This document shows, in pieces, positions 5,963-32,119 of a stretch of 35,311 bases of DNA; positions within the stretch are counted from its first letter, which is position 1, and every line of letters begins with the position of its first letter. The notes under the pieces are model-generated. The model ran no database searches. It saw nothing but the letters and a program-made list of their open reading frames with translations, and was not told the DNA's origin. This DNA comes from Ectothiorhodospiraceae bacterium. GTDB taxonomy: Bacteria; Pseudomonadota; Gammaproteobacteria; Nitrococcales; Halorhodospiraceae. The stretch spans positions 1-35,311 of the forward strand of contig PULM01000060.1 of NCBI GenBank assembly GCA_003552345.1. Reading direction: 5' to 3'. The position numbers and the translations under genes are program-made.

Positions 5963-8173
5963 ATGGTCCAATCCGCCCTAGCCGACATCGACGACGTCAC
6001 CACCCTGGAGCCGGCGGCCTGGCTGCACCGCCTGCCGGTGTCGCTCAGTGACGCCGACCGCGAGCTCCTCGAGCGCGCCTGGGCCCGGGCCCAGGCCGGC
6101 TACGGGGAGGGGCTGCGCGACTCCGGCGAGCCGTACTTCGCCCACGCCGTCTACACCGCGACCATCCTCGCCGAGCTGGGTCTGGATGCCCCGACCCTGG
6201 CAGCGGCGCTGATCCACGATCTGCCCGGGTTGCAGGAGGGCGCCCTCGACGGTCTGCGCAAGCACCTGGGTCGGGATATCGCCGACCTCGCCCAGGGCGT
6301 GTGCCGCATGCACGGCATCGGGCGCTTCCGCGACGCCGCCGAACTCGAGGCGGCCGTTCAGGGCGAGCGGGTGGAGGGACTGCGCAAGATGTTGCTGGCC
6401 ATGGCCCGCGACGTCCGCGTGGTCTTCATCGCCCTGGCCGAGCGGCTCCACGATCTGCGCAGCTGCCGCGGACTCGCCGACGAGGCGCGTCTGCGCCTGG
6501 CCCGGGAGACGCGAGATATCTATGCGCCCCTGGCCAACCGGCGGGGGATCTGGCAGCTCAAGTGGGAGCTCGAGGATCTGGCCTTCCGCCACCTGGAGCC
6601 GGAGGCCTATATGGACCTGGCCAAGCGTCTGGCCGAGCGCCGGCGCGATCGCGAGGCCTACATCGAGCAGGTGTGCAGCCAGCTGCAGGCGGCCATGGAC
6701 GAGGCGGGGCTGAAGGCCGAGGTCTACGGAAGGCCCAAGCACATTTTCAGTATCTACCGAAAGATGCAGCGCAAAGGGCTGCGCTTCGATGACCTCTACG
6801 ACCTGCGCGCCGTGCGCATCCTGGTCGATGACGAGCGCACCTGCTACGCCGCCCTGGGGATCGTCCACGGCCTGTGGACGCCGATCCCGCGGGAGTTCGA
6901 CGACTACATCGCCACCCCCAAGGAGAACAACTACCGCTCCCTGCACACCGCCGTGGCCGGGCCCGAGGGCAAGGCGGTGGAGGTGCAGATCCGCACCCAC
7001 GAGATGCACGCCGAGGCGGAGCTGGGGATCGCCGCCCACTGGCGCTACAAGGAGGGCGGTCAGCAGGACGCCGAGTTCGAGGAGAAGATCGCCTGGCTGC
7101 GCCAGCTGCTCGAGTGGGGGCGTGAGGACGACGACGAGGAGGGCGATTTTGTCGACCGGGTCCGCGCCGAGGTCTTCGCCGACCGGGTCTACGCCCTGAC
7201 CCCGGGGGGTGATGTGATCGCCCTGCCGCGCGGGGCAACGGCGCTCGATTTCGCCTATCACATCCACACCGGCCTCGGGCATCGTTGCCGCGGGGCGAAG
7301 ATCAACAACCGGATCGTGCCGCTGACCCGGCCGCTGGAGAACGGCGACCGGGTCGAGATCCTCACCAGCCGCGAGGAGCGGCCCAGCCGCGACTGGATCA
7401 ATCCGGAACTCGGCTATCTCTACACCAACCGGGCCCGCACCAAGGTGCGGACCTGGTTCCGCCAGCGCGAGCACGACAAGAACGTCGCCGCCGGGCGCCA
7501 GGCCCTGGACAAGGAGCTGCGCCGGCTGGGCCTGGAGGATGTGGGGACCGACGAGGTGGTCCGGCGCAGCCGCTACAGCCGGGCGGACCTCTTCCTCGCC
7601 GCCCTGGGCCGGGGGGAGGTGACGCCGGGGCAGATCGCCGCGCTGCTGCGCGACCGCCTGTTGCCCCAGCAGCCGGCGCCCGCTCCGGCACCCGAACGTG
7701 CCCGCACCGCCGAGAAGCCGGGCGGCGACGATGACATCACCGTGGAGGGGGTGGGCAACCTGCTCACCCGCATGGCCCGCTGCTGCACCCCGGCCCCCGG
7801 GGATGCGATTGTCGGCTTCATCCCCCGGGGCTCGGGGGTGACGGTCCACCGTCAGGACTGCCGCAACGTGGAGCAGCTGCGCGAGCGCGAGCCGGAGCGT
7901 CTGCTCGACGTCAACTGGCGGACCGAGCCGGCCGGCCGCTATCCGGTGCGCATCCACGTGCGCACCAGCGTGCTCGACGGGCCGCTGAGCGAGGTCACCC
8001 GCCTCTGTGGCCACGAAGGGGTGCGCCTGGACGGGGTGCAGACCCACGCCGAGCCGGCAGACGCCTACCGCATCGACATCGACGTGCAGGTCAGCGACGT
8101 CCAGCAGCTCTCGCGGCTGATGGCCAAGCTGGCGGCCAGCGAGCGCGTGGAGCGCGTGTGGCGCGGTACATAA
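5963..8173 (+). CDS. relA: RelA-type (p)ppGpp synthetase (HD-like, synthetase, TGS and ACT-like regions)
   Basis: [53 protein letters not shown] (EXDD motif), [62 protein letters not shown]. Confidence 0.95.
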
Positions 8174-14249: not shown

Positions 14250-15920
14250 ATGGACCGCGAAGAGCTCCAGCAGACCCTCACCGACCTACGAGACGACCTG
14301 CTCGGCCTCGACAGCGAGGCGGCCCGGCAGCGGGAGGCCCCGTGGCTGCCGTCCTGGGAGCGGCTGCTGCGTCGCATCGATGGTCTGATCGCCCGACTCG
14401 AGCGCGAGGACGAGCCCCTGCTGGTGGTCTTCGCCGGCGGCACCGGCGCCGGCAAGTCGACCCTGGCCAACACGCTGGCCGGCTCGGCGGTGGCCGCCAC
14501 CAGCGCCCGTCGGCCGACCACCTCGGTGCCCACGGTCATCGGCCATCCCGCCGATCTGGATACCGTCCTGCGCCGCGGCGTGCTGGCCGCCGAGGCCGAA
14601 CGGGCCGCCCTGCGCACCGCCCCGCTGACGACGGTGCCGGAGGGGCTGGTGGTGGTGGATGCGCCGGATGTCGACAGTATCGAGACCGCCAATCGCGCCG
14701 CCACCGAGCGCCTGCTGGAGGTGGCGGACGTCTGGGTCTGGCTGGCCACCGCCCGCACCTACGCCGACGAAGCCGGCATGGCCTACCTGCGCCAGGCGGC
14801 GCAGCTCGACGTCTCGACCCTCGTCGTGCTCACCCAGGCCACCGATGCCGAGGCGCGGGAGATCCTCCCCGACCTGGCCGAGAAACTCGACGCCGCCGGC
14901 CACCGCGCCGTCGAGACGGCGCATCTGCCCACCGCGCCGGTCTCCGAGGAGCGCCTGCCCGAGGCGGTGGCCGGGCCGGTGCTCGAGCGGATCCGCGCCC
15001 TGGCCCCGGTGGAGCAGCGGGCCGCCCACCGGCGGCGGACGGTGCACGGCGCCGTGCGCTACCTGCCGGCGGAGATCGATGCGCTGCTCGAGGGGGTCGA
15101 GGCCGAGCGCCGCGCCGCGCAGGGGTTGGCCGCCGCGGTCCGGGAGGGCTACACCGACGTGCCCGAGCGGCTGCTCACCCAGCTCCACGAGGGGGAGCCC
15201 CTGCGCCGCGAGGTGCTCCGCCGCTGGACCGAGCTGGTGGGTAGCGGCTGGCTGCAGCGCCAGCTCCATGCCGCCGTGGGCCAGCTCTCGCCGCGGCGCT
15301 GGCTGGCCTGGTTGCCGCTGGGCCGGGGTGGCCGGCAGGTCGAGCAGGAAGCGAAGGAGGAGGCCCGCGCCGGCATTGCCGAGATGCTGCATACGGTCCT
15401 TGAGCAGACCGCCGCCGAGGGGGAGAGCGCCTGGCAGCAGGATCCGGTGGGGCGCGCGATCTTCGCCCGGCAGCCGCGCCCGCGCGCCGCCGGGGCGGTG
15501 GCCCGTCACGCCGAGGCCGAGGCGCTGGTGGCGGCCTGGGAGCAGCAGGTGGCCGAGCACGTGGCCACCATCGGCCGTGCCAAGCTCAGCTGGGCGCGCC
15601 GTGCCACCACCGGCATCAACGCCACCTTCACCAGTGCCGTACTGGTCCTGTTTACCCTCAGTGGTGGCCTGAGCACCGGCGAACTGGCGCTGACCGCCGC
15701 CGGCTCCACCACCACTCACACGGTCCTCTCGCGAATCCTGGGTGAGCGCAACGTCCATCAGCTGATCACGGACATCCGTGCCGATCTCCACGCCCGCGTG
15801 GCGGAGCTGGCCGAGTCCCAGGCGCAGGTCTACCAGCGGCTGCTGACCGAGGCCGCACCGCCGCCCGAGGCGGTGGCCGCCGTGCAGGGTCGGCGGGATG
15901 CGCTGGAGGCGCTGGCATGA
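14250..15920 (+). CDS. Dynamin/YfjP-like P-loop GTPase, first of a tandem pair
   Basis: G1 GGTGAGKSTLANTLAG, G2-like RRPTTSVPTV, G3-like VVDAPDVDS, G4-like LTQATD; C-terminal hydrophobic segment INATFTSAVLVLFTLSGGLSTGELALTAAGS. Start at 14250 is a choice; the track ORF begins at 14214. Confidence 0.75.
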   Translation: MDREELQQTLTDLRDDLLGLDSEAARQREAPWLPSWERLLRRIDGLIARLEREDEPLLVVFAGGTGAGKSTLANTLAGSAVAATSARRPTTSVPTVIGHPADLDTVLRRGVLAAEAERAALRTAPLTTVPEGLVVVDAPDVDSIETANRAATERLLEVADVWVWLATARTYADEAGMAYLRQAAQLDVSTLVVLTQATDAEAREILPDLAEKLDAAGHRAVETAHLPTAPVSEERLPEAVAGPVLERIRALAPVEQRAAHRRRTVHGAVRYLPAEIDALLEGVEAERRAAQGLAAAVREGYTDVPERLLTQLHEGEPLRREVLRRWTELVGSGWLQRQLHAAVGQLSPRRWLAWLPLGRGGRQVEQEAKEEARAGIAEMLHTVLEQTAAEGESAWQQDPVGRAIFARQPRPRAAGAVARHAEAEALVAAWEQQVAEHVATIGRAKLSWARRATTGINATFTSAVLVLFTLSGGLSTGELALTAAGSTTTHTVLSRILGERNVHQLITDIRADLHARVAELAESQAQVYQRLLTEAAPPPEAVAAVQGRRDALEALA

Positions 15921-17545
15921 TCCGCTCGATGGGCTCCGAACGCGGATCGACCGCCGCCGGGCATGGCGGTGTCTGCCCTGAGATCGGTCTGGAACGCCTG
16001 CAGGCACTGCACGCCCTCGGTACCGGCCGCCTGCCGCCGGCGCTGGTCGAAGAGATGGAGCAGGTGCAGCGGCGCGCCGAGCAGCGCCTGGCGCGCTCCC
16101 GGGATCACGTGGTCGTCGCGGTGGCCGGCGGCACGGGCAGCGGCAAGTCCTCGCTGGTCAACGCGCTGGTGGGCCAGGAGGTCTCCGCCCCGGGGGTGCG
16201 CCGGCCGACCACCGACCACGCCGTGGCGGTGACCGTGGGCGAGGACGAGCGCGCCGCGGCGTTGCTCGACTGGCTGCAGGTCTTCGAGCGGCACACCGTC
16301 CCGGCGGCGGGGGAGGGCGATCTGGCCGGGGCGGTCATCCTCGACCTGCCGGATATCGACTCAGTGGTCGATGCTCACTGGGCGGTGGCTGAGCGGCTGA
16401 TCGAGCGCTGCGACCTGCTGCTGTGGGTTGTCGATCCGCTCAAGTATGCCCACGGCCTGGCCCACGAGGGGTACTTCGCCCGTCTGGCCCACCACGCCGA
16501 GGTGCTCATGGTCGCCCTCAACCACGCCGACCGGCTGGCGCCGGCGGATCGGCAGGGCTGTCTGGAGCACCTGCGCGAGCTGCTTGGTCGTCAGGGGCTG
16601 CGGGCGGTGGAGGTGTTGGCCACCGATGCCATCGGCGGGGAGGGCGTGGCCGGGCTGGCCGAACGCATCGGCGCCCGGGTGCGCGAGCGCCGTGCCCCGC
16701 TGGAGCGCCTGCGCGCCGATGTCGCCGAGCTGGTCACGCGCAGCGCCGCCTGCCTTCCGGAGCCCGGGCTTGTGGAACTCGACAGCGAGCGCCTGGGGGC
16801 GGCGCAGCGCCAGGCGGTGAACGAGACGGCGCTGCTTGCCGGTGCCGCCACGGCCTACCGCCAGGGCGGCCAGCGGGCCCTGGCCTCGCCGCTTAAGCGC
16901 CTGCTTGGGGGGCTGTTCGCAGGGCTGCGCCGGCGCACGACGGGGGCGGCCGAGCCCGGCGCGGCGTTGCCGCGTCCGCAGGTGGCGGAGGCGCTGCTGC
17001 GCGATGGCCTGCTGCAGGCGGTGGAGCCGGCCGCCGGCCGCTTGCCCGCTCCGGCGGCGGAGCGGCTGCGTGACCTGGCGGCCGCGGCAGCGGCGCCGCG
17101 GGCCGGCGAGCTGCGCGGACGGCTGGGTGGGCTGCCTTGGTTCCCCCGCCCGCGGGTTTGGTGGCGCGCCCTGGGGGGGCTGCGTGGGGCCAGCGAGGCC
17201 GTCGCGGTCTTCGGCGCGCTGTGGCTGGCGGCGCGGGGCGTGGCTGAATGGCTGGCCCTGCCCAGCCTACCGGCGCCGACGGTGCTCGGGGAGATCGGCT
17301 GGCCCACCGCGCTGCTGGTGGGCGGCAGCACCGCCAGTCTGCTGCTCGGTTGGGGCGGGCGTCGACTGCTTGGCCCGGGGGGGCGGCGTCATGCCCGGCG
17401 GTTGCAGCGGCAGGTGGCCGAGACGGTGGCGGAGGAGGAGAGTGCGGCGCTGGCCGGCGTGCGTGAGGAGCTGGAGCACTGCCAGCGGCTGAGCACACGG
17501 GCCCACAGCGCCGCCACCGAGGTGGCGACGCCGCGGGCGGCGTAG
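15917..17545 (+). CDS. Dynamin/YfjP-like P-loop GTPase, second of a tandem pair
   Basis: ATGA overlap with the previous gene; G1 GGTGSGKSSLVNALVG, G2-like RRPTTDHAVAV, G3-like ILDLPDIDSV, G4-like NHADRL; two C-terminal hydrophobic segments. Confidence 0.75.
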   Translation: MIRSMGSERGSTAAGHGGVCPEIGLERLQALHALGTGRLPPALVEEMEQVQRRAEQRLARSRDHVVVAVAGGTGSGKSSLVNALVGQEVSAPGVRRPTTDHAVAVTVGEDERAAALLDWLQVFERHTVPAAGEGDLAGAVILDLPDIDSVVDAHWAVAERLIERCDLLLWVVDPLKYAHGLAHEGYFARLAHHAEVLMVALNHADRLAPADRQGCLEHLRELLGRQGLRAVEVLATDAIGGEGVAGLAERIGARVRERRAPLERLRADVAELVTRSAACLPEPGLVELDSERLGAAQRQAVNETALLAGAATAYRQGGQRALASPLKRLLGGLFAGLRRRTTGAAEPGAALPRPQVAEALLRDGLLQAVEPAAGRLPAPAAERLRDLAAAAAAPRAGELRGRLGGLPWFPRPRVWWRALGGLRGASEAVAVFGALWLAARGVAEWLALPSLPAPTVLGEIGWPTALLVGGSTASLLLGWGGRRLLGPGGRRHARRLQRQVAETVAEEESAALAGVREELEHCQRLSTRAHSAATEVATPRAA

Positions 17546-23833: not shown

Positions 23834-24262
23834 TCAGCGGCTGTAGAGGGTCTGCGGGTCGATCTGCGGCGGTTCGTTGACCACCACCCGGTCGCCCTGG
23901 AGCACGTTGTAGAAGCAGGTGCGCCGCCCCGTGTGGCAGGCCGGGCCGTGCTGATCGACGCGCAGCAGCAGGGTGTCGCCGTCGCAGTCGAGGCGCAGCT
24001 CGCGCAGGTGCTGGACCTGGCCCGAGGATTCGCCCTTGCGCCAGAGTTTTCCGCGCGAGCGGGAGTAGTAACAGACGCGCCCGGTCTGTAGGGTTTCTTC
24101 TAGGGCCTCCCGGTTCATCCAGGCCAGCATCAGCACCTCGTTGCTGTCGTGCTGTTGCGCAATGGCCGGCAGCAGGCCGTCGGCATTGAAGGGCAGTTGG
24201 TCGAGCACCGCCGACCAGTCCAGGCCGTCTCCCGGGCGAGCCGTCTCGTTTTGTCCGATCAT
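23834..24262 (-). CDS. hisI: Phosphoribosyl-AMP cyclohydrolase (standalone HisI)
   Basis: LMLAWMNREALEETLQTGRVCYYSRSRGKLWRKGESSGQVQHLRELRLDCDGDTLLLRVDQHGPACHTGRRTCFYN; no HisE domain fused. Confidence 0.96.
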   Translation of the reverse strand: MIGQNETARPGDGLDWSAVLDQLPFNADGLLPAIAQQHDSNEVLMLAWMNREALEETLQTGRVCYYSRSRGKLWRKGESSGQVQHLRELRLDCDGDTLLLRVDQHGPACHTGRRTCFYNVLQGDRVVVNEPPQIDPQTLYSR

Positions 24263-24343
24263 GATAGGGAGGATACAGGCTGGAGGCGGGCGGCTGAAGC
24301 CGGCAAGCTGGGCGGGGCGAGCAACAGTGAGGAGTGTCTAGCC

Positions 24344-25870
24344 GTGACGGACCCGATCGCGACCCTGGAGGCCCACCGGGCCCTGGCCGAGGCCTTGCAG
24401 GCCCCGGAGTGCTATCCATGGCCGGTGGACACCGTAGAGCGCATCGAGACCCACATCTCCACGGTGCTGCTCGCCGGCGAGTACGTGGTCAAGCTCAAGA
24501 AGCCGCTGGATCTCGGCTTCCTCGATTTCTCCAGCCTCGAGCGGCGGCGCTACTTCTGCGACGAGGAGATCCGCCTCAACGGTCGGCTGGCCCCGCAGAT
24601 CTACCTGCGCCGGGTGGCGATCGCCGGCAGCCCGGCGGAGCCGCGTGTCGACGGCGAGGGCGATGCCCTCGAGCACGCCGTGCTCATGCGCCGCTTCCCC
24701 GAAAACGAGCTGATGAGCCGCCTGCTGCGCGAGGGGCGACTGCCCGCCGACGCCGTCGAGCGGTTGGCCGAGACGGTGGCGCACTTCCATGCCGGACTGC
24801 CGTCGGTGGGCGAGGAGAGTGAGTACGGCACGCCGGAGACCGTGGCCGAGCCCATGCGCGCCAACTTCCGCGCCCTGGAAGAGCTGCCGGCGGCGGCCGG
24901 GCTTCGCGCCGAGCTGCGCGCCCTGGCGCGCTGGAGCGAGGCGCAGCTCCAGCGCCTGGAGCCGCTGATCCATCAGCGGCGTGCCAGCGGCGCGGTGCGC
25001 GAGTGCCACGGCGACCTGCACCTGGGCAACGTGGCCTGGCATCAGGACGAGCTGATCATCTTCGACGGCATCGAGTTCAACCCGGCCCTGCGCTGGATCG
25101 ATACCGCCAGCGAGATCGCCTTCACGGTCATGGACCTGGACTTCGAGGGTGCCCGGCGCCTGCGCCATCGCTTCCTGGATCGCTACCTGGAGCACAGCGG
25201 CGACTATCAGGCGCTGGCGCTGCTGCCGCTCTACGCCGTCTACCGCGCCCTGGTGCGGGCCAAGATCAATGGCCTGGAGGCCGAGCAGGGCGCCGGTGGC
25301 GCCGCCCGCGAGGCCCTGGCCGAGCACGTCCAGCTGGCCCGCGGCTACACCGCGGCGCAGACGCCGGAGCTGGTCATCACCTACGGGCTTTCGGGCTCCG
25401 GTAAGAGCACCCGCGCCCGTCGCCTGGTCGAGGAGCGCGGCTTCGTGCGGCTGCGCTCGGATGTCGAGCGTAAGCGGCTCTTCGGCCTGGAGCCGCGGGC
25501 GCGCTCGGACTCCGCCCTGGACAGCGGGCTCTACACTCCGGAGGCGACCCGGCGCACCTACGAGCGCCTGCTGGAGCAGGCCGAGTGTGCCCTGGAGGCC
25601 GGCTTCTCGGTGGTTGTGGATGCCGCCTTCCTCAAGGCCGAGCGCCGGCGCCCGTTCCTCGATCTGGCCGAGCGCACCGGCTGCCGGTTTCGTATCCTGC
25701 ATGTGCGCGCCGATGAGCAGGTCCTGCGCGGGCGCCTGCGCAAGCGGCTGGCCGAGGGGCGCGACCCCTCCGAGGCCGACGAGGCGGTGCTGGATGCGCA
25801 GCTTCGCACGGCGCAGCCGCCCTCCGGCGACGAGGCGGCCTTCGTCGAAACCGTCGACGCGGACGGGTAA
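24344..25870 (+). CDS. Bifunctional aminoglycoside-phosphotransferase-like / P-loop (AAA) kinase fusion
   Basis: GTG start refined; APH-like CHGDLHLGNVAWHQDELIIFDGIEFNP; C-terminal Walker A ITYGLSGSGKSTRARRLVEE. Confidence 0.85.
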   Translation: MTDPIATLEAHRALAEALQAPECYPWPVDTVERIETHISTVLLAGEYVVKLKKPLDLGFLDFSSLERRRYFCDEEIRLNGRLAPQIYLRRVAIAGSPAEPRVDGEGDALEHAVLMRRFPENELMSRLLREGRLPADAVERLAETVAHFHAGLPSVGEESEYGTPETVAEPMRANFRALEELPAAAGLRAELRALARWSEAQLQRLEPLIHQRRASGAVRECHGDLHLGNVAWHQDELIIFDGIEFNPALRWIDTASEIAFTVMDLDFEGARRLRHRFLDRYLEHSGDYQALALLPLYAVYRALVRAKINGLEAEQGAGGAAREALAEHVQLARGYTAAQTPELVITYGLSGSGKSTRARRLVEERGFVRLRSDVERKRLFGLEPRARSDSALDSGLYTPEATRRTYERLLEQAECALEAGFSVVVDAAFLKAERRRPFLDLAERTGCRFRILHVRADEQVLRGRLRKRLAEGRDPSEADEAVLDAQLRTAQPPSGDEAAFVETVDADG

Positions 25871-27694: not shown

Positions 27695-29067
27695 CTGCGG
27701 CACCGACCGACCCGAGCGCCTACGACGCGCGCAAGCGCCGGCTGGTGGATACCTTCACCAAGCTCTATCTGCGCGGTGCGTGGCGGCCGCTGGACCGGCT
27801 GGTGCGCCGGCTGCACGCGGCCGATGCGGCGGCGGTCTTCGCCGAGCTGCCGGTCCCGCAGGTGGTCGATACCCTCCAGGTGGTAAGCCGGCCCCGTCAC
27901 GCAGCGCGGATCGTCAATGAGATGCCCCAGGCGCTGCGCCATCAGGTCGTCGAGGCCTTGCCCCGCGAGGAGCTGGCGGAGCTGCTGGAGAATTTCCGCC
28001 CCGATGAGCTGACGGACCTGATCCAGGCCTTGCCGGAGGATCGGCGCGAGCATCCGCTCTCCGCGCTGCCCGCCGACAGCCGCGACGAATTAGACACCCT
28101 GCTGGCCCACGATCCCGGGGCCGCCGGTGGTCTGATGACCACGGAGTTCTTTGCCCTGCACGAGACGGTCACCGTGCGCGAGGCCATCGATGCCCTGCGG
28201 GGATGCTCCGATGCCGAGATGGTCTTCTATCTCTTCCTGACCGACGAGGCCGGCCACCTGACCGGGGTCATCTCGCTGCGCCAGCTGCTGCTCGCCCGGG
28301 AGGACGCCCAGGTGGCAGAGGTCATGAGCCGGCGGGTCATCCGCGTGCGCACCGACACCGAGGAGGAGCAGGTCTCGCGGCTCTTCGACAAGTACCGATT
28401 GCTCGCGCTGCCGGTGGTGGACGAGGAGGATGTTCTGGTGGGGATCGTGACGGTCGATGACATCATCGACGTCATCGGCGAATCCACCACCGAGGACATG
28501 CTCCGCATGGCCGGTACCCGGCAGTCGGAGATGCTCACCGACTCGGTCTTCCGGATCGCCGGGGTGCGCCTGCCCTGGCTGTTCGCCGCCTTCCTCGGCG
28601 GGCTGGGGGCGACGGCGGTGATCGGTCAGTACGAGGACATCCTCGCCCAAGTTATTATCCTCAGCGCCTTCGTGCCCATCATCATCGGCATGGCCGGTAA
28701 CGTCGGCGTCCAGTCCGCCACGGTCACCGTCCGCGGCCTGGCCACCGGCGCGATCCATCTGCGCGATACCGTGGCCATGGTCTTCAAGGAGCTGCGGGTG
28801 GGGCTGTTGCTGGGTGCCTTCTACGGCGTGATTCTCGCCCTCTACGGCTTGTGGATGTACGACAGCCTGCAGCTTGGTCAGGTGGTCGGGCTGACCATCC
28901 TGACCAATATGGCCGGCGCGGCCCTGCTGGCGGTCTCCCTGCCGATGCTCTTCGTGCGCCTGAATGCCGACCCGGCGGTGGCGACCGGGCCTTTCGTCAC
29001 CACCGCCATCGACGTGCTCGGGGTGCTCAACTACTTCGTCATCGCCAGCCTGATCTACGGCCTGTAG
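27679..29067 (+). CDS. mgtE: Magnesium transporter MgtE (TTG start)
   Basis: MgtE N-domain, tandem CBS (LMTTEFFALHETVTVREAI; EVMSRRVIRVRTDTEEEQV), C-terminal TM domain RLPWLFAAFLGGLGATAVIGQYEDIL, VPIIIGMAGNVGVQSATVTVRGLATG. Confidence 0.95.
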   Translation: MQIDLAAAPTDPSAYDARKRRLVDTFTKLYLRGAWRPLDRLVRRLHAADAAAVFAELPVPQVVDTLQVVSRPRHAARIVNEMPQALRHQVVEALPREELAELLENFRPDELTDLIQALPEDRREHPLSALPADSRDELDTLLAHDPGAAGGLMTTEFFALHETVTVREAIDALRGCSDAEMVFYLFLTDEAGHLTGVISLRQLLLAREDAQVAEVMSRRVIRVRTDTEEEQVSRLFDKYRLLALPVVDEEDVLVGIVTVDDIIDVIGESTTEDMLRMAGTRQSEMLTDSVFRIAGVRLPWLFAAFLGGLGATAVIGQYEDILAQVIILSAFVPIIIGMAGNVGVQSATVTVRGLATGAIHLRDTVAMVFKELRVGLLLGAFYGVILALYGLWMYDSLQLGQVVGLTILTNMAGAALLAVSLPMLFVRLNADPAVATGPFVTTAIDVLGVLNYFVIASLIYGL

Positions 29068-29182
29068 CCGGCCCCGGTTCGCCGCGCCGGGATGACGCGG
29101 GTACTAGCGCTCGTCCCCCGGTCCGTAGGACACTACCGGGCGTTGCCCAGGCTCCCGGGGGAGCGCAGCGCAGGTCGTTTCG

Positions 29183-30259
29183 ATGTCGGGCCGCAGTCTC
29201 TATACCCTGATGTACGTGGTGGCCACGGCCATCTGCGTGGGGATCAGTGTCTACCTCTCGTACTACGGCTACTACAGCCACCTCCAAGAGCTGGCGATCT
29301 TCTTCGCCGCCCTGCTCGGGATCTTTCTCTTCGGCACCGACATGCTGCTGCGCCGCTTCCGGCTCGAGGGGCGCAGCCCGATCAAGCCGCTGGCCTTCTT
29401 CGTCATCGTCGCTTTTTTCAGCGGCGCGAGTAACTACAACTTCCTCTACACCAACTTCATGGAGCGGGACATGGCCGAGCGCGTGGTCAGCGACCAGTTC
29501 TCGGTCTTCCGTGACGACCTGACCGCCACGCGCAGCGTGCTCGGCGAGGCGCCGATCATCGACCGGGTCGCCGAGCAGCGCCGCGAGCTGGCCCGCGCGC
29601 TGGATAACCTCGACACCCAGATCAACGATCCGCTGCGCCCCGGCTGCGGGGCGCGCTGCCGCGAGCACATCGAGCAGATCCACGATCAGCTTGGTGGCGC
29701 GCCGACAGAGCTCGCCGTGCCCTCGCCGGATGCCGGCGCCGAGGCCAACGAACGCTGGTACGAGCACTTCCGCGAGGCGGTCATCAACGACTTCGAGAAC
29801 GGCGTCGTGCCCGAGGCGTACCACCGGACCCGGGAGCTGATCGGACAGATCGACGCCCTGCTCGAGCGCTACGACGACCCGTACCGCGCGCTGGCCGAGG
29901 AGCTCGAGCAGCGGGATCGGGCCCTGCTTGAGCATCGCGACTTTGAGATCATCGCCACCCTGCGCACCCACTCCCGCGAGGTACAGCGCCGTGCGAACGT
30001 GCTCCTGCCCGAGGCGGGGCAGGTGCAGCACCGCATCATCCGGTCCGATCTGGACAAGCTCGGCGAGATCCCGATCAGCGTGCGCGACGGCTTCATCGAC
30101 CGCCCCAACCCCGGGGTGACGGCGGTCTCGGTGATCCTCGGGGTGTTCGTGGACGTAGCCCCGGTGCTCTTCGCCTGGCTGATCTTCGCGCCGGCGTCAG
30201 CCGGCGCGCGCGGTGGCGGTACCACCGGTCGGGGACGTAACCGGGTGGCGACGCGCTAG
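29183..30259 (+). CDS. Uncharacterised multi-TM protein with large central soluble region (cassette gene 1)
   Basis: 358 aa; about three N-terminal hydrophobic segments, a roughly 230-residue hydrophilic helical region with CGARC, one C-terminal TM (TAVSVILGVFVDVAPVLFAWLIFAPA). Confidence 0.7.
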   Translation: MSGRSLYTLMYVVATAICVGISVYLSYYGYYSHLQELAIFFAALLGIFLFGTDMLLRRFRLEGRSPIKPLAFFVIVAFFSGASNYNFLYTNFMERDMAERVVSDQFSVFRDDLTATRSVLGEAPIIDRVAEQRRELARALDNLDTQINDPLRPGCGARCREHIEQIHDQLGGAPTELAVPSPDAGAEANERWYEHFREAVINDFENGVVPEAYHRTRELIGQIDALLERYDDPYRALAEELEQRDRALLEHRDFEIIATLRTHSREVQRRANVLLPEAGQVQHRIIRSDLDKLGEIPISVRDGFIDRPNPGVTAVSVILGVFVDVAPVLFAWLIFAPASAGARGGGTTGRGRNRVATR

Positions 30260-30278
30260 CGGGCAAGGAGGGGAAACC

Positions 30279-31334
30279 GTGGTCGAGCCCAGGGAGTCAC
30301 GCTGGCAGCTGCGGCGCTACTACGAGCGCCGCCCGGAGCAGGAGTCGCCGGCCGAGGAGGGCGGCGAGCAGGAGCCGTCCTCGGCCCCCACGCCGTGGCC
30401 CTCGCCGGAGGAGCGCCTGGCCGCCGACGTAGAGCCGGTGCAGCGCGGCGCGCTGATCGACGACAACATCGACCAGCGCCAAGGCAATTACCTGATCTCT
30501 TTTGGCTTTCCGGGCTCCGGCAAGACCACCTTCCAGTCCTTCCTGGCCTACTACATCACCCACATCGGCCCGTTCGAGGCCCAGCCGCTCATTGCCCCGG
30601 AGCAGAGCGTCCAGGGCTGGGAGCCGATGGCCATCTTCAACGAGTGGATGCGCATCTGGGGCCAGGGGCGCTTCCCGCCGGCGAACCCGGTGGACGAGGG
30701 CGACATCCGCGAGCTGAGCTTTCGGGTGCGGCCGCTGCAGGGCAGCGGTGAGGCGGTGGATCTGAGCTTCCTCGAGGCCTCCGGCGAGCTGATGACCCAG
30801 GTCGTGGCCGACCGTGTGCGCGATCCGGCCATGATCGAGACCCTCAGCCGTTACTTCGCCAACGAGCAGCTGCGCCTGATCCTGGTGCTGGTGGTCGATC
30901 CGGAGCACGGCGAGGAGAACGACATCCTCTTCCAGAACCTGCTCGCCTTCCTCGATCTGCACTTCCCGGCCCTGCGCGGGCGCACCTCGCTGGCGGTGCT
31001 GGTCTCCAAGCCCGAGCAGGCGCTGCGCCGGCTGCAGGGGCGTGACGAGCACTACCGCCGTTACGAAGAGCTCAGCGCCGACGCCTGCGAGGCCTTCGTG
31101 CAGCGCTTCGCGCCACGCACCTACCGCATCCTCGACGGCTGGACGGACCAGGATCGCGTGCAGCTCATGGCCCTGCACCTGGGCACGGTGCCCGACGGCG
31201 AGCAGGGGCCGCGGCTGCAGGAGCCCGACTACGACGACATCCGCGACATCTTCGCCTGGATCTACGGCCAGTTCGGCGGCGGGCGGATGGGGCCGACCTG
31301 GTGGCAGCGCATTCTGGAGTGGCTGCGCCTATGA
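30279..31334 (+). CDS. Uncharacterised P-loop GTPase-like protein (cassette gene 2)
   Basis: GTG start preceded by aaggagggg; Walker A ISFGFPGSGKTTFQSFLAYY; VDLSFLEASGE at a Walker B/G3-like position; VLVSKPEQ at a G4-like position. Confidence 0.72.
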   Translation: MVEPRESRWQLRRYYERRPEQESPAEEGGEQEPSSAPTPWPSPEERLAADVEPVQRGALIDDNIDQRQGNYLISFGFPGSGKTTFQSFLAYYITHIGPFEAQPLIAPEQSVQGWEPMAIFNEWMRIWGQGRFPPANPVDEGDIRELSFRVRPLQGSGEAVDLSFLEASGELMTQVVADRVRDPAMIETLSRYFANEQLRLILVLVVDPEHGEENDILFQNLLAFLDLHFPALRGRTSLAVLVSKPEQALRRLQGRDEHYRRYEELSADACEAFVQRFAPRTYRILDGWTDQDRVQLMALHLGTVPDGEQGPRLQEPDYDDIRDIFAWIYGQFGGGRMGPTWWQRILEWLRL

Positions 31335-32119
31335 GCCAGGGGGCATCGGCGATCCTCGGCCGCTGCGCCTTCGCCACCGTGCGCGGTCTGACCGTCCACG
31401 GCAGCGGCGCCCTGGCCGGACTCTCCGGCTTCCCCCAGGCGGTGGAGTTCCGCGGCCGCGGTGGCGACGACCACGCCCTGCCGGCCGGTCATGAGCAGGT
31501 GGTCTTCCGTCGCGTGGTGCGTTACCAGGAGAGCACCGCCCCGGAGCGCGGCGGCCGGCTGGATCTGATCGGCGCGTTGGTCCGCCGCCTGGATGCCAGC
31601 CGCCGGGCGGGGTACGCCGGCGCCTGTGTGGCGGTGGCCCACCGCGATCTGGAGGCGTACGCCGCGGCCCTGGACGAGGCGCAGGAGCTGGTCCGCCAGG
31701 TGGATGAGGTGATCGCCGAGGGCAGCGCCGCGCGCTGGTCCCGGGAGGCCCGCGGCGGTCGGGAGGCGGGCCGCCGGCGCTTTGCGTTCGAGGGCCGCGG
31801 CGCTGGTCGCGTCCTGTGGCTCCATCGTGGCACCGCCGCCGAGGCCGATCCGGCGCTGGTCCCGGAGGTCCTGCGCCAGATGGCCTGGCTGGATGCCTAC
31901 GCGCTCACCGGGGTATTGATCTTTCCGGCGGCACGGCCGGGCTCGCGCGCCGTGGACAGCGACCTGATCGCCGGTTGTCGGCGCGCCAAGCAACAGGAGA
32001 TCGAGGGCGTGGAGGCGGGCTTCCGGGCCGAGTTCGAGCGCCGCCTGGCGGAGATCGAGTACGAGTACCAGGCCGCCACCCGGGCGGCGGAACCGTCGTC
32101 GCCGCGCGGTGACGACTAG
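31331..32119 (+). CDS. Uncharacterised GTPase-associated partner protein (cassette gene 3)
   Basis: ATGA overlap with cassette gene 2; 262 aa, ILGRCAFATVRGLTVHGSGALAGLSGFPQAVEFRGRGG... ending in a charged helix (AKQQEIEGVEAGFRAEFERRLAEIEYEYQAATRAAE). No family assigned. Confidence 0.65.
   Translation: MSQGASAILGRCAFATVRGLTVHGSGALAGLSGFPQAVEFRGRGGDDHALPAGHEQVVFRRVVRYQESTAPERGGRLDLIGALVRRLDASRRAGYAGACVAVAHRDLEAYAAALDEAQELVRQVDEVIAEGSAARWSREARGGREAGRRRFAFEGRGAGRVLWLHRGTAAEADPALVPEVLRQMAWLDAYALTGVLIFPAARPGSRAVDSDLIAGCRRAKQQEIEGVEAGFRAEFERRLAEIEYEYQAATRAAEPSSPRGDD

Follow-up and report, generated by a model that had tools for sequence, protein, structure and literature searches.

The window analysed here, a stretch of 35,311 nt from an Ectothiorhodospiraceae bacterium, contains three consecutive genes downstream of mgtE, which we call P1, P2 and P3 and refer to together as the triad (Table 1). 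The spacing that an earlier note had read from the DNA alone agrees with the checked coordinates: three open frames, of which P1 and P2 are separated by 19 nt and P2 and P3 overlap by ATGA, set off from mgtE by the intergenic gap, in which a consensus scan found neither a sigma-70-like promoter nor a terminator. Chance open frames in high-GC DNA can be excluded for all three genes, because the differences between orthologues fall mainly at third codon positions, the genes are under purifying selection (dN/dS of 0.08-0.27 between orthologues), and the gene order is kept elsewhere.

Table 1. Features of the triad locus, in window positions unless residues are given.
Feature	Position	Strand	Description
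mgtE-P1 gap	29068-29182		115 nt; mgtE stop at 29067
P1	29183-30259	+	358 aa, open frame
P2	30279-31334	+	351 aa, open frame; GTG start preceded by GGAGGGG
P2 N-terminus	residues 1-59		low confidence
P2 Walker A	residues 76-84		GFPGSGKTT
P2 Walker-B region			SxxExSGE
P2 G4-like motif			[ST]KP
P3	31331-32119	+	262 aa, open frame

Hydropathy places transmembrane helices in P1 at about residues 8-26, 37-55, 65-83 and 317-335, and four such segments are found in 11 of 11 homologues, in keeping with the earlier description of the first gene product as a multi-spanning membrane protein. The loop between the second and third helices and the C-terminus are positively charged and the large domain carries a net negative charge, and from these loop charges the N-terminus is probably inside and the charged domain of ~220 residues (about 90-310) probably periplasmic. 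P1 has no Pfam match above cut-off, and a profile search against the PDB gave only coiled-coil and helical-bundle noise. It is the best conserved member of the triad within the genus, and the alignment contains a motif with two cysteines, RPGCGxxCR, that is conserved across both the Halorhodospira and the alphaproteobacterial-type groups.

In the case of P2, the P-loop noted earlier is present, and each of its residues is invariant in 12 homologues except residue 77, which is F or L. The closest Pfam families are DO-GTPase2 (PF19993; 24.9 bits, 1.9e-5) and DO-GTPase1 (PF19975; 22.0 bits, 1.1e-4), both matched below their 27-bit curated cut-offs, and these two are the nearest in all of Pfam for 5-7 of 7 P2 homologues. 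Genuine DO-GTPase1 and DO-GTPase2 proteins cross-match at 19.6-27.1 bits, and since these scores are similar to those of P2, the protein looks like a third branch of equal depth. Alignment of profiles by hhalign gives the same neighbours (E of 7e-9 and 1.5e-7; 95.8% and 94%; scores of 68 and 60), with a modest margin over a TssM control (score 48, E 8e-6). For the most part, a PDB profile search with P2 hit SRP-type and G-alpha GTPases in their P-loop region, and the AF2 model of P2 (pLDDT 73) matches G-alpha, Rho/Rac, YcjX and GTPases of similar kind in Foldseek (best E 3.6e-5), so that on the model P2 is a TRAFAC-fold P-loop NTPase. The fold and the proximity to DO-GTPases agree with the earlier label "P-loop GTPase", but guanine specificity does not follow: the G4-like motif continues with a variable residue where the usual Asp is missing, its lysine is lost in one homologue (L027), and the guanine-specific pattern NKxD/TKxD is not found. 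Because the G4 Asp is absent, "GTPase" is used here for P2 as the name of a fold and makes no claim of activity, and P2 might bind ATP, or might bind a nucleotide without hydrolysing it.

The third protein is the least conserved member, with 23% mean identity between groups. Its AF2 model (pLDDT 81) shows an N-terminal domain of about residues 8-130 with the arrangement beta-beta-(alpha)-beta-beta-beta-alpha and a G-x6-D-x3-R-x-G motif, and a C-terminal part formed by a long helix (210-253); the strand order of the modelled domain appears longin/roadblock-like. P3 has no Pfam match, its PDB profile search yielded the same coiled-coil and helical-bundle noise as that of P1, and a viral fold library contained no match. 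In Foldseek its top seven PDB matches are all TagF, though weak (E 2.9e-3 to 6.5e-2, TM-scores 0.24-0.29), and G-x6-D-x3-R is present in 12 of 12 P3 and 12 of 12 TagF sequences in the same register as in the hhalign alignment, a motif that is weak taken alone, as 26% of permutations reach three matching invariant columns. The hhalign comparison of P3 with TagF has a probability of 3% and a score above 100 of 100 column shuffles, and HMMER gives no significant match between them (best E 0.17, shuffles' best 0.71). Homology to GAP1 was also considered and is not demonstrated, as against GAP1-N1 the hhalign score is not significant (3 of 100 column shuffles reach it) and there is no Pfam match and no meaningful HMMER match. 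Given the weak motif, the lack of HMMER support and the result for GAP1-N1, we call P3 TagF-like and place it in neither family. A C-terminal transmembrane segment is present in 7 of 7 alphaproteobacterial-type P3 proteins and in none of five from Halorhodospira, which suggests that P3 works close to the membrane, in the former group at any rate.

The P2 gene is found in 7 of 9 Halorhodospira genomes; it is missing from two genomes of 77% and 83% completeness and present in each of the six genus relatives that reach at least 93%. No match was found in the other 50 relatives examined or in a sample of 320 further genomes of the class, nor were plasmids and phages matched by P2 or plasmids by P1. 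When 85,462 species genomes were scanned with alignment A1, five MAG loci from beyond Halorhodospira came to light, four labelled Rhodobacteraceae/Paracoccaceae-type and one Microbacteriaceae, and sampled Alphaproteobacteria added one genome with P2 as query (G502, among 346) and one with P1 (G753, among 289). In the scan of genome contigs a single sequence retrieved nothing and an alignment retrieved eight loci; with few scan patterns and small samples, the genome counts for the triad are lower bounds. The locus labelled Microbacteriaceae (L018, SKHB01000152.1) bears an alphaproteobacterial-type triad, possibly through mis-binning, and one further weak match (G415/L028) was discarded as an ABC-transporter-like protein.

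Whether the three genes co-occur in other genomes had been proposed as a refutation test, and here the triad passed: the order P1-P2-P3 is present in every one of the 13 loci that offer sufficient context from Halorhodospira, Rhodobacterales and related MAGs (the window, L008-L012, L016-L020, L027 and L032), and a further 1.3-kb contig (L005) carries P2 and the start of P3. A search with P1 only among the 289 Alphaproteobacteria turned up two genomes, each of which has all three genes, and the divergences of P1, P2 and P3 correlate (r = 0.83-0.95), to which shared phylogeny contributes. Two copies are frameshifted, in P1 of L017 (6771-7864) and in P2 of L020 (7734-8916); as both are MAG contigs, gene decay and assembly error are indistinguishable there. 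In the window the wider neighbours include pnp, a relA/spoT-type gene, RND, an ABC transporter, glutamate-cysteine ligase, mgtE, usp and a lonB-type gene, and in the inner Halorhodospira clade the triad is flanked by mgtE, usp and lonB, with mgtE itself not found in L010. In two other genomes (G002 and G008) an RND efflux operon lies upstream and a DUF945 gene downstream, and in L020 the reading frames show adjoining miaB-like and phoH-like genes. The flanking genes thus change while P1-P2-P3 stays whole, which identifies the triad as the conserved unit and mgtE as incidental. The notion that three unrelated genes have come together by chance or operon inertia, for example around magnesium transport given that mgtE lies just upstream of P1, is very improbable and largely refuted, since the triad is intact where mgtE is absent nearby (G002/G008) or not seen beside it (the alphaproteobacterial loci), and its order is conserved in a different class.

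We consider the triad to be one membrane-linked NTPase switch with P1 as anchor, P2 as switch and the TagF-like P3 as adaptor, a reading to which we give a probability of about one half. It draws on the co-inheritance and order of the genes, the hydropathy-based topology of P1 and the modelled folds of P2 and P3, whereas mutual binding of the three proteins, GTP hydrolysis by P2, the signal and the output are inferred. P1, as an outward-facing scaffold or sensor, would hold the complex in the inner membrane with its helical domain exposed to the periplasm, where that domain would respond to an envelope or ionic condition, and on the cytoplasmic side P2 would switch according to the nucleotide it binds. 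P3 would bind P2 through the TagF-like N-terminal domain and relay or regulate its state, and would stay at the membrane by means of the long helix at its C-terminus, a role that falls to the C-terminal transmembrane helix in Rhodobacterales; as the least conserved member, it may be dispensable for P2. An output domain is not apparent.

The earlier note had also proposed a conflict or immune role, and while its outline of a membrane protein, a switch and a partner gains from the co-inheritance and from the TRAFAC fold of P2 near the DO-GTPases, this flavour finds no support. The corresponding explanation, that the triad is a divergent or reduced DO-GTPase/GAP1-type conflict system, with P2 as its GTPase, P3 as a minimal GAP1 and P1 as a triggered membrane sensor or effector, has several likenesses to the DO-GTPase1/2 systems of Kaur et al. 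2020 (PMC7159879): those families are nearest to P2 by both Pfam and hhalign, with a shared Walker A, [DE]xxGE after strand 3 and, on the model, a TRAFAC-type fold; in the classic loci the gene immediately downstream of DO-GTPase1 is GAP1, just as P3 follows P2; GAP1-N1 (PF20012) and P3 have a strand order similar by eye and an R-x-G at the hairpin; and membrane association is common to both, transmembrane parts being frequent in published GTPase-centric systems. In these systems, however, the core is constant and the effectors vary strongly (PMC7159879), whereas the triad has no visible variable part and a single GTPase, without the G4-like Asp and below both Pfam cut-offs, and is without a GASH gene, GAP1-M/C, second GTPase, effector or EAD; no GASH gene or variable effector lies beside it in the window or in L011/L012, and at the other loci the flanks were read as open frames. 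Furthermore, P3 has 262 aa compared with roughly 650-880 aa, no further GAP1 domains and no significant profile match to GAP1-N1. The triad is genus-core, with housekeeping neighbours and no PADLOC match, its membrane protein is the best conserved of the three within the genus, P2 matches nothing in plasmids or phages, and PHROGs and NCBIfam gave nothing useful. This explanation is unlikely, and the triad appears to be an undescribed membrane-linked molecular switch and not an anti-virus system; the open-licence literature searched contained no description of it.

The TagF matches of P3 raise another alternative, namely that the triad is a cousin of the TssM-TagF pair in which a membrane NTPase and a TagF-type regulator control how an envelope complex that is not a T6SS is put together. 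The best PDB matches, the hhalign score above all column shuffles and the motif shared with TagF (PF09867) argue for it, as does the adjacent membrane NTPase gene: in the T6SS loci that were fetched, TagF adjoins long P-loop proteins with TssM-like sequence. The SDR motif of TagF is required for Fha binding (PMC5995506). Against it stand the low Foldseek and hhalign values, an HMMER result not clearly above shuffles, the permutation frequency of the motif, the absence from P3 of the TagF N-terminal GKxPxxGDF, the absence from the genus of any TagF above cut-off and of a T6SS TagF, and the closer relation of P2 to DO-GTPases than to TssM (68 vs 48), and we regard this kinship as doubtful.

MglA-MglB and Rag-Ragulator each consist of a Ras-like GTPase with a roadblock/longin partner. 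What the triad has in common with them is the broad concept of a Ras-like switch paired with a small alpha/beta platform, but there is no sequence match and P1 has no counterpart there.

The triad is a compact module, three genes in a clear order, and its proposed switch can be tested. If the resemblance to TagF holds, then the T6SS regulator, the GAP1 partner of GTPase-centric systems and the triad would share one principle, and with its few parts the triad would be a tractable model. It is conceivable, though improbable, that a new class of membrane NTPase switch begins with the triad and that P3, TagF and the GAP1 N-domains are branches of one adaptor superfamily, whose members partner TRAFAC-type NTPases in bacterial machines that have nothing else in common.

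Three other genes of the window, all on the forward strand, were recorded alongside the triad. The frame at 15917-17545 encodes a bacterial dynamin-like GTPase (Dynamin_N, 1.6e-10) with a weak PADLOC match to LeoA (3.7e-6). The product of 5963-8173 is a RelA/SpoT-type protein that matches the PADLOC candidate PDC-S33 over its RelA_SpoT region and is most likely a housekeeping enzyme of that type. Finally, the protein encoded at 24149-25870 has an N-terminal part with no match at the threshold used and a C-terminal AAA_33 domain (3.6e-41).
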